From positions 1-64,000 of the forward strand of contig DASXVS010000041.1 of NCBI GenBank assembly GCA_036504095.1: 64,000 bases of DNA, in the 5' to 3' direction. Positions within the stretch are counted from its first letter, which is position 1, and each line of letters starts with the position of its first letter. This DNA is from Armatimonadota bacterium. GTDB lineage: Bacteria > Armatimonadota > DTGP01 > JAKQQT01. The position numbers and the translations under genes were made by a program. The notes beneath the pieces were generated by a model, which made no database searches, was not told the origin of the DNA, and saw only the letters and a list, made by a program, of their open reading frames with translations. Of the stretch, positions 53,621 through 60,798 are shown piece after piece.

Positions 53621-59121
<5,501 letters not shown>

Positions 59122-59160
59122 TTACCCAAATCTGACACGTGCCTTACGTCTCGTCGCTTG

Positions 59161-59190
59161 TTGACGCGGCTCGCGCGCATGCGATACATT
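59161..59190 (+). promoter_or_regulatory. Sigma-70-like promoter of the CDF transporter gene
   Basis: TTGACG (59161-59166), 18 bp, TACATT (59185-59190). The start would fall near 59195-59198, at the first helix of the riboswitch. Moderate match to consensus; position relative to the aptamer is the main support. Confidence 0.6.
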
Positions 59191-59193
59191 AGG

Positions 59194-59283
59194 GGTGAAG
59201 AGCAGGCAGCCCGGTGAATCGGGAGTAGCCGGGCCCGCGCGTGGCGGGCAGCAGGCATTGATGAGCCCTGCGGGACTGAAACC
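59194..59283 (+). promoter_or_regulatory. NiCo (czcD-type) metal riboswitch
   Basis: The order and bases match the NiCo aptamer: GAGCAGGCA (59200-59208), a hairpin CCCG/CGGG, GTAGCCGGG (the usual GCAGCCGGG), a second hairpin CCCGC/GCGGG, CAGCAGG, and CCTGCGGGACTG, the counterpart of the family's CUGUGGGACAG. GCAGG (59251-59255) pairs with CCTGC (59267-59271) for the last helix. P1 is short (GGT with ACC). NiCo RNAs bind Co(II) or Ni(II) and switch on metal exporters; the CDF gene follows. A terminator competes with the last helix. Confidence 0.85.
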
Positions 59284-59302
59284 AGGTTCCGCGGGGTTTT
59301 TT
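59266..59302 (+). terminator. Rho-independent terminator overlapping the riboswitch's last helix
   Basis: CCCTGCGG (59266-59273) pairs with CCGCGGGG (59289-59296), one G-U, followed by TTTTTT (59297-59302). Its left arm is the 3' strand of the aptamer's last helix, so metal binding should prevent termination and switch on the CDF gene. Confidence 0.85.
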
Positions 59303-59376
59303 GCGCGATCCCGCCGGGCACGTCGCCGGAGCGTCGGCCGGCATCGGGTCGTGCGCGCTTCACCAGGACACACGAG

Positions 59377-60798
59377 ATGAGTAAAAGCGAAACCGCCATC
59401 CGCCGGGCCGGCGAGGAGAAGCGTTGGGTGGCGCTCACCTCGGTGGGCGCGGCCGTCCTGCTGACCTCCACAAAGCTGGTCATCGGTATCTCCACGGGGA
59501 GCCTCGGAATCCTGTCCGAGGCGGCGCACTCCGGCCTGGATTTTGTGGCGGCGGCGATCACGTATTTCGCCGTCCGGGTGTCGGACCGTCCGGCCGACGC
59601 GGACCATACCTATGGCCACGGCAAGGTTGAAGCGCTTTCCGCGCTCGTGGAAACGCTCCTGCTGCTGATCACCTGCGCGTGGATCATCCACGAAGCGGTG
59701 GCGCGCCTACTGTTCCGGGAGGTGCACGTCGAGGCGACGCCCTGGGCCTTCGGGGTCGTGCTGATGTCGATCGTCATCGACGTGTCGCGGTCGCGAGCCC
59801 TGATGCGCGTTGCGAAGAAGCACAACAGCCAGGCTCTGGAGGCGGACGCGCTCCATTTCAGTACGGACGTCTGGAGCTCCACCGTGGTGCTCGTCGGCCT
59901 CGCGCTGGTGAAATACGGCGAGTTGACGCATGCGGGCGCCGGGTTCCAGAGAGCGGACGCCCTGGCGGCCCTCGGAGTGGCCGCCATCGTGATCCAGGTG
60001 TGCTTCAATCTGGGGAGGCGGACGCTGGACGTGCTGCTGGACAAGGCGCCGGCCGGCCTGGCCCTCGAGATCGAGGAGGCTGTGAGGGAGGTTGACGGCG
60101 TGCGCGGGGTCCACAGGCTGCGCCTGAGGCGCGTTGGCCCGGACATCTTTGTGGACCTGGTCGTTTCGGTGGAATCGCATACGCAATTGCAGCGCAGCCA
60201 TGCGATCGCGGAATCCGTTGAAGGCGAGATATGCAGGCTGTCTCCCGGAGCGGACGTCGTCGTTCACGTGGAGCCAGAGCCCCGCGCGGGCGAGTCCGAC
60301 ATTGAGCGCATCCGCGACGTGGCGGCGGGTCTGGGGCAGACGGTCCATAACGTCGTCCTTTGGGAGCACAGCGGGAAAACCCACGTTGACCTGCATGCTG
60401 AACTGCCGGATGGGATGGAGCTTGGAGACGCTCACGACGTCGCGGATGCGATGGAGCAGGCCATCCACGAGGCACTGCCGGATGTATCCTCGGTTACCAT
60501 CCATATCGAGCCGCGCGAGGATCGTCAGGGGGTCACGGAGGACATTACGGCTCATTCCAAGAGCGTCATATCCCGCGTGGAGGCTGCCGCGGCCGCGGTT
60601 GGCGGCGTGCTGGAATGCCACGATGTGAGTGTCCTCAAGACGGCTCAGGGGCATCGGGTGGCGATGCACTGCGTGTTTGACGCGTCGCTGTCCGTGTCGG
60701 AAGTGCACCGGATTTCGTCACAGCTTGAGGAGAGAGTACAACGGACTGTTCCGAACGTTATCCGGGTAACCACACACCCGGAGCCGCTCGGAAAGTGA
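59377..60798 (+). CDS. Cation diffusion facilitator (CDF) metal exporter with three tandem C-terminal domains
   Basis: The 473-residue product has six membrane helices (about 20-215), the metal-site pairs HSGLD (helix 2) and HFSTD (helix 5), and RADALAALGVA. CDF proteins usually end with one cytosolic dimerisation domain of about 80 residues and total near 300; here three follow in tandem (about 225-305, 310-390, 400-470), each ending in a segment such as VVVHVEPEP, SVTIHIEPRE and RVTTHPEP. The extra His and acidic residues suggest added metal sensing. It expels divalent metal by proton exchange. The NiCo riboswitch in its leader points to Co or Ni rather than zinc. Confidence 0.92.
   Translation: MSKSETAIRRAGEEKRWVALTSVGAAVLLTSTKLVIGISTGSLGILSEAAHSGLDFVAAAITYFAVRVSDRPADADHTYGHGKVEALSALVETLLLLITCAWIIHEAVARLLFREVHVEATPWAFGVVLMSIVIDVSRSRALMRVAKKHNSQALEADALHFSTDVWSSTVVLVGLALVKYGELTHAGAGFQRADALAALGVAAIVIQVCFNLGRRTLDVLLDKAPAGLALEIEEAVREVDGVRGVHRLRLRRVGPDIFVDLVVSVESHTQLQRSHAIAESVEGEICRLSPGADVVVHVEPEPRAGESDIERIRDVAAGLGQTVHNVVLWEHSGKTHVDLHAELPDGMELGDAHDVADAMEQAIHEALPDVSSVTIHIEPREDRQGVTEDITAHSKSVISRVEAAAAAVGGVLECHDVSVLKTAQGHRVAMHCVFDASLSVSEVHRISSQLEERVQRTVPNVIRVTTHPEPLGK

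Follow-up and report, generated by a model that had tools for sequence, protein, structure and literature searches.

A predicted NiCo/czcD-class riboswitch with a promoter-abutting aptamer upstream of a CDF metal exporter gene in an Armatimonadota bacterium

INTRODUCTION

The riboswitch class closest to the element described here, known as NiCo or czcD, was reportedly introduced by Furukawa et al. in 2015. Passages of several articles (PMC7689651, PMC7266159, PMC9484302, PMC9294342, PMC7917058, and PMC11477304) supply the background that follows. According to review passages, the published mechanism is the same termination-based ON switch that we propose below, and in a solved NiCo relative the metal is coordinated by G46 and G47 in junction J2/3 and by G87 and G88 in J4/1.

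Which metal the class senses is contested. Passages of a 2021 review recount that binding of Co and Ni was originally reported, call the cognate metal unclear, and list later affinities obtained anaerobically (61 nM for Ni, 93 nM for Zn, 120 nM for Co, 400 nM for Fe, and 11 μM for Mn). The same passages argue that, of these metals, Fe(II) and Mn(II) alone would occupy the switch in cells and describe a Listeria member that controls a PfeT-like exporter conferring Fe(II) resistance. In the corresponding passages of two later reviews, the ligand is described as under debate (2022) and the class is entered as Fe2+ (2024).

Here, we analyze a 64,000-nucleotide stretch of DNA from an Armatimonadota bacterium (contig DASXVS010000041.1, positions 1 to 64,000; referred to as the window). 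It contains what is very probably a NiCo/czcD-class riboswitch that steers a CDF metal exporter gene through transcription termination, with metal binding and switching predicted from the sequence.

RESULTS

Identification of a NiCo-class element

An Rfam scan of the 64-kb window returned a single RNA family above its own cutoff, the NiCo model RF02683, with 37.7 bits (E = 7.3e-5; gathering score, 37). Because this excess of 0.7 bits is thin, we used the 32 other NiCo elements of the phylum, without the window element, to construct an independent lineage covariance model. This model scored the window at 55.6 bits at 59188-59280 (rough E value, 2.2e-16), and its second-best match in the window reached 11.8 bits. 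We also carried out a genome-wide word-pattern search, which proved far too loose in GC-rich genomes to serve as an element finder and was used only as a source of decoys; among the 80 listed of the 117 chance loci bearing the same three words, the highest score with the lineage model was 21.1 bits.

The first-pass annotation had assigned this DNA to the NiCo family from conserved blocks occurring in order, and had proposed the Rfam covariance model as a check. That model was passed narrowly, the window-free model agrees, and all four blocks can be located between 59200 and 59276: GAGCAGGC at 59200-59207, GCCGGGC at 59228-59234, GGCAGCAGG at 59247-59255, and CCUGCGGGAC at 59267-59276, with P2, P3, and P4 likewise present in order. 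Across the 32 relatives, 14 of 23 aptamer pairs show two-sided changes, and 93.6% of alignment cells are paired, versus 30.7 to 41.5% with slid partners. These results confirm that the element upstream of the exporter is, as judged from its sequence, a true member of the known NiCo/czcD riboswitch class. The features of the locus are as follows.

59161-59190, + strand: promoter, with -35 TTGACG at 59161-59166, an 18-nt spacer, and -10 TACATT at 59185-59190
59186-59280, + strand: NiCo (RF02683) match, 37.7 bits with Rfam and 55.6 bits with the lineage model
59199-59200, + strand: P1 5' strand, pairs A59199-U59277 and G59200-C59276
59205-59230, + strand: P2, GGC 59205-59207 with GCC 59228-59230, and inner CCCG 59210-59213 with CGGG 59220-59223
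59231-59233, + strand: GGG block of J2/3, assigned from sequence; 59233 also closes P3
59233-59249, + strand: P3, GCCCG 59233-59237 with CGGGC 59245-59249
59251-59271, + strand: P4, GCAGG 59251-59255 with CCUGC 59267-59271
59272-59275, + strand: GGGA of J4/1, assigned from sequence and also lying in the left arm of the terminator
59263-59302, + strand: intrinsic terminator, stem 59263-59277 with 59285-59299, loop 59278-59284, and T run 59297-59302
59365-59368, + strand: ribosome-binding-like AGGA, assigned from sequence alone, with the start codon 8 nt on
59377-60798, + strand: CDF metal exporter of 473 amino acids, with a Cation_efflux domain and three ZT_dimer stretches

The junction guanines are intact, with G at every position of 59231-59233 and 59272-59274, and a C59203-G59274 pair forms within the junction. 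These J2/3 and J4/1 guanines would correspond to the metal-site guanines of the solved relative, a mapping to the crystal numbering that we infer. No other promoter-like site occurs in 59000-59500 (shuffle mean, 0.0), and usual promoter spacing would place +1 near 59197. Because they overlap the -10 box, the first columns of the NiCo match are probably not transcribed here and represent promoter DNA rather than RNA.

Among the 291 genomes of the phylum, 33 have a NiCo match with the Rfam model (32 score over the cutoff), and the window's own genome has one; the lineage model matches 40 of the 291 at an E value of 0.001, two of them (G134 and G286) weakly. For comparison, we used the Clostridia-type class of a Lachnospiraceae record, in which 25 of 196 sampled genomes match. 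The comparisons below concern 33 phylum elements (L001 to L033, including the window element) and 28 class elements. Downstream of the former lie 25 CDF genes, 6 P-type ATPase genes, and 2 others (L007 and L019, the latter at a contig end); downstream of the latter lie 20 CDF and 8 P-type ATPase genes. The window element adds one more copy of the NiCo class in this phylum.

A terminator that shares strands with the aptamer

The terminator stem comprises 15 pairs, 5 of them G-U, and has a predicted energy of -25.6 kcal/mol (z = -5.4), a value that none of 200 dinucleotide shuffles reached. Under a laxer control, in which shuffling was confined to the 60 nt that follow the aptamer, the window energy was reached in 20 of 300 rounds; that stretch is GC-rich. 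The left arm consists of the P4 3' strand (59267-59271), J4/1 (59272-59275), and the P1 3' strand (59276-59277), in line with the earlier proposal that the 3' strand of the last helix doubles as the left arm. That proposal had also described a perfect T-tract terminator; the T run and the stem are there, and "perfect" is a slight overstatement because a third of the pairs (5 of 15) are G-U.

In predicted folds of transcripts starting at 59197, P2, P3, and P4 are kept up to 59284, and the terminator displaces P4 by 59303; the lowest-energy fold of 59197-59303 contains the terminator. The shared strand and this fold support the ON-switch logic put forward earlier. Under this mechanism, of which we infer the start site, metal binding, and switching, transcription would begin almost at the aptamer's first paired base. 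With no metal, P4 and P1 would open, and their freed 3' strands would pair downstream to form the terminator, so that RNA polymerase would stop at about 59302. A divalent metal (Co, Ni, or Fe) bound at the guanine-rich junction, cooperatively as would be expected of the class, would instead hold P4 and P1, block the terminator, and allow the exporter to be produced.

The same overlap is found among relatives. Of the 33 phylum elements, 32 build a terminator on the P4 3' strand (the one miss contains an N), as do all 28 class elements; a lax shuffle control of the phylum set gave 5 to 16 of 33. Terminators of -18 kcal/mol or lower occur in 30 of 33 phylum elements, compared with 0 to 5 of 33 over 12 shuffle rounds.

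The exporter and the identity of the sensed metal

The downstream gene had been called a CDF exporter, and this call holds: alongside its Cation_efflux domain, the protein scores 278.3 against the CDF superfamily model TIGR01297 (cutoff, 82.35). It stays under the equivalog cutoffs for FieF (198.9 versus 420) and for the Co/Ni exporter DmeF (45.9 versus 250), as well as under those for MntE and ZitB, and its metal therefore cannot be named from sequence. Both TM2 and TM5 carry an HxxxD motif. The best relative in the PDB is the ferrous-iron pump FieF, over residues 19 to 301.

The protein carries three ZT_dimer stretches where one is usual; similarly long CDFs follow the switch at L006 and L021 and, in the class sample, at L178. 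Its closest full-length relative, with 55% identity, is encoded in genome G012, on a contig with about 64 nt of sequence ahead of the gene. The nearest genome, G001, gave no match to the CDF and none to the NiCo model.

Nickel or cobalt had been taken as the signal of this switch. This part of the earlier reading is not established, given that the review passages call the ligand contested and bring Fe(II) and Mn(II) into consideration. The same switch might instead respond physiologically to Fe(II), or to Mn(II), with the CDF guarding against iron excess, an alternative that we regard as a serious contender placed just on the doubtful side of even. The contested ligand, the in-cell affinity argument, the Listeria PfeT-like case, and the Fe2+ listing all speak for it, as does the match of the exporter to FieF. 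The 2021 review passages, however, leave Co and Ni possible, the exporter falls far short of the FieF equivalog cutoff, and its TM2 has His where FieF has Asp. Gene neighborhoods contribute as well: L007 adjoins genes for a rubrerythrin and a VIT1-family protein, and downstream of L026 lies a gene for a Rieske [2Fe-2S] protein. These neighborhoods lean toward iron, but they represent just 2 of 33 elements.

The genes around these two elements can be described further. In the flanks of L007 (L151), the rubrerythrin and VIT1-family genes both adjoin the switch, and in the flanks of L026 (L154), the Rieske protein gene after the switch is followed by a P-type ATPase gene. The switch-controlled P-type ATPases of the phylum (L152 to L157) have TPC in the M4 metal motif, which we take to be the signature of the Nia type (P1B-5), associated with Ni and Fe. 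The gene neighborhoods of the phylum elements are useful for asking which metal the class senses.

A short P1 helix

The window P1 has two contiguous pairs; two of the four Rfam consensus P1 pairs, the outer ones, are nonstandard. Outward of P1, A59198 opposes G59278 and G59197 opposes A59279, and the outermost P1 pair is also unpaired in 20 of 32 relatives. We considered a kink-turn built from these A-G and G-A oppositions and rejected it, as the bulge lies on the wrong side for that motif. A possible extension of P1 by GGU at 59194-59196 pairing with ACC is predicted for an RNA start at 59194, but these bases would be untranscribed from the inferred start at about 59197.

The aptamer alone is about as stable as its shuffles (z = -0.19 and -0.41), and P1 is absent from the metal-free fold predicted from a start at 59197. 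Such unremarkable stability and a missing P1 may be natural for a switch that depends on its ligand, yet they lend it no support.

It is quite improbable, in our judgment, that the element is a decayed attenuator in which the terminator still functions and the aptamer has ceased to sense metal. Decay would be in keeping with the P1 of two pairs and with the 37.7 bits, the joint lowest Rfam score among phylum matches over the cutoff. Every junction guanine is nevertheless intact, the lineage-model score falls inside the range of the relatives, and at most three contiguous P1 pairs are present in 25 of 33 relatives. Chance resemblance has a negligible probability: the region is GC-rich, the Rfam margin is thin, and the same words arise by chance at many other loci, but the 80 word-bearing loci stop at 21.1 bits against 55.6 bits here, so that the window-free model speaks strongly against this explanation, and the locus has its promoter, its terminator, and its exporter gene.

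A compact 5' layout in the phylum

For the NiCo-class switch that we favor, the first-pass annotation had remarked that P1 is short compared with known members and that the promoter lies directly against it. Both remarks are borne out, with the -10 box at 59185-59190 and P1 starting at 59199, and both features are usual in this phylum rather than peculiar to the window copy. In 22 of the 33 phylum elements, the window element and one weak case (L018) among them, the best -10 box ends 8 to 16 nt ahead of the CAGG core; plain shuffles gave a mean of 4.6 and a maximum of 9 across 50 rounds. Six further phylum elements, which either came from the lineage model or scored below the Rfam cutoff, all have the box at 10 to 15 nt (weakly in L213), and all precede a CDF gene. 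By family labels, the layout spans 14 taxonomic families of the phylum.

Class elements differ. Only 2 of 28 have the -10 box at 8 to 16 nt before the core, and in 23 of 28 the best one sits 30 to 61 nt upstream. The difference in promoter position (22 of 33 versus 2 of 28) has a Fisher p value of 1.4e-6, and that in the share of elements with at least four contiguous P1 pairs (8 of 33 versus 21 of 28) a p value of 0.0005; both values are too small because they ignore shared descent, and -10 calls are noisier in AT-rich genomes. Within the phylum, a P1 of two pairs occurs in the window element and seven others, and a P1 of one pair in three.

We also considered whether promoter proximity shortens P1. 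Mean P1 length is 2.8 pairs in elements with a -10 box within 16 nt (n = 23) and 3.0 pairs in the remainder (n = 10; Mann-Whitney p = 0.44); within the phylum, promoter distance does not predict P1 length, and this idea is not supported.

At usual spacing, no more than about 6 nt would separate the RNA start from the core, which would make the P1 5' strand the very 5' end of the transcript. The compact layout is a lineage variant, and any functional role for it is putative. It is an evenly balanced proposition that the phylum's NiCo switch is a 5'-terminal form, in which promoter and aptamer are fused, transcripts start with the 5' strand of a P1 of one to four pairs, and initiation and sensing are spatially locked, with a possible tuning role for the start site or the 5' triphosphate. 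Literature searches on the NiCo riboswitch, RF02683, Armatimonadetes riboswitches, and start sites with a P1 helix returned no title on such a layout, which is short of proof that none exists. The layout suggests that the aptamer, if functional, manages with an almost absent P1 and without a leader, and the phylum elements are useful for probing the role of P1.

Many class elements have a leader, and some of these show CAGT..ACTG pairing beside P1, at times with a variable hairpin between. This pairing would compete with P1 and is not present at the window element. An upstream word, TTTGCRCTGC, is common to 9 of the 28 class elements (L164 to L191) and is not seen at the window element.

Surroundings of the locus

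Between a lacZ-like gene and the riboswitch promoter lies a 122-bp imperfect inverted repeat (58990-59111) with 61-nt arms that are 74% complementary. The genome contains 47 copies of its word CGGCTGAAGCCG, versus 6 of the reversed control, and the copies of the word are often paired at similar spacing, in the manner of a REP-like dispersed element. Neighboring genes between 53615 and 63450 encode a carbohydrate kinase, a large family 2 glycoside hydrolase, and a GtaA-type glutaminase-like protein, none of them obviously metal-related.

COMPARISON WITH KNOWN SYSTEMS

The exporter most resembles FieF/YiiP, its best match in the PDB, and departs from it in the TM2 metal motif (Asp in FieF, His here), in its extra C-terminal dimerization domains, and in missing the FieF equivalog cutoff.

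Among the phylum elements, the window element shares the layout, the terminator overlap, and the mostly CDF-type downstream genes, and it sits at the low end of the Rfam scores. Most CDF open reading frames in this set span about 300 to 350 codons, whereas the window CDF carries three ZT_dimer stretches.

With the NiCo/czcD class at large, the predicted switch has in common the four-helix junction, the GGG blocks in J2/3 and J4/1, a terminator over the 3' part of the aptamer, the ON logic, and a CDF gene. It differs in its 5' end: in the class sample, P1 has at least four pairs in 21 of 28 elements and the -10 box lies 30 to 61 nt upstream in 23 of 28, while at the window element P1 has two contiguous pairs and the promoter abuts the aptamer.
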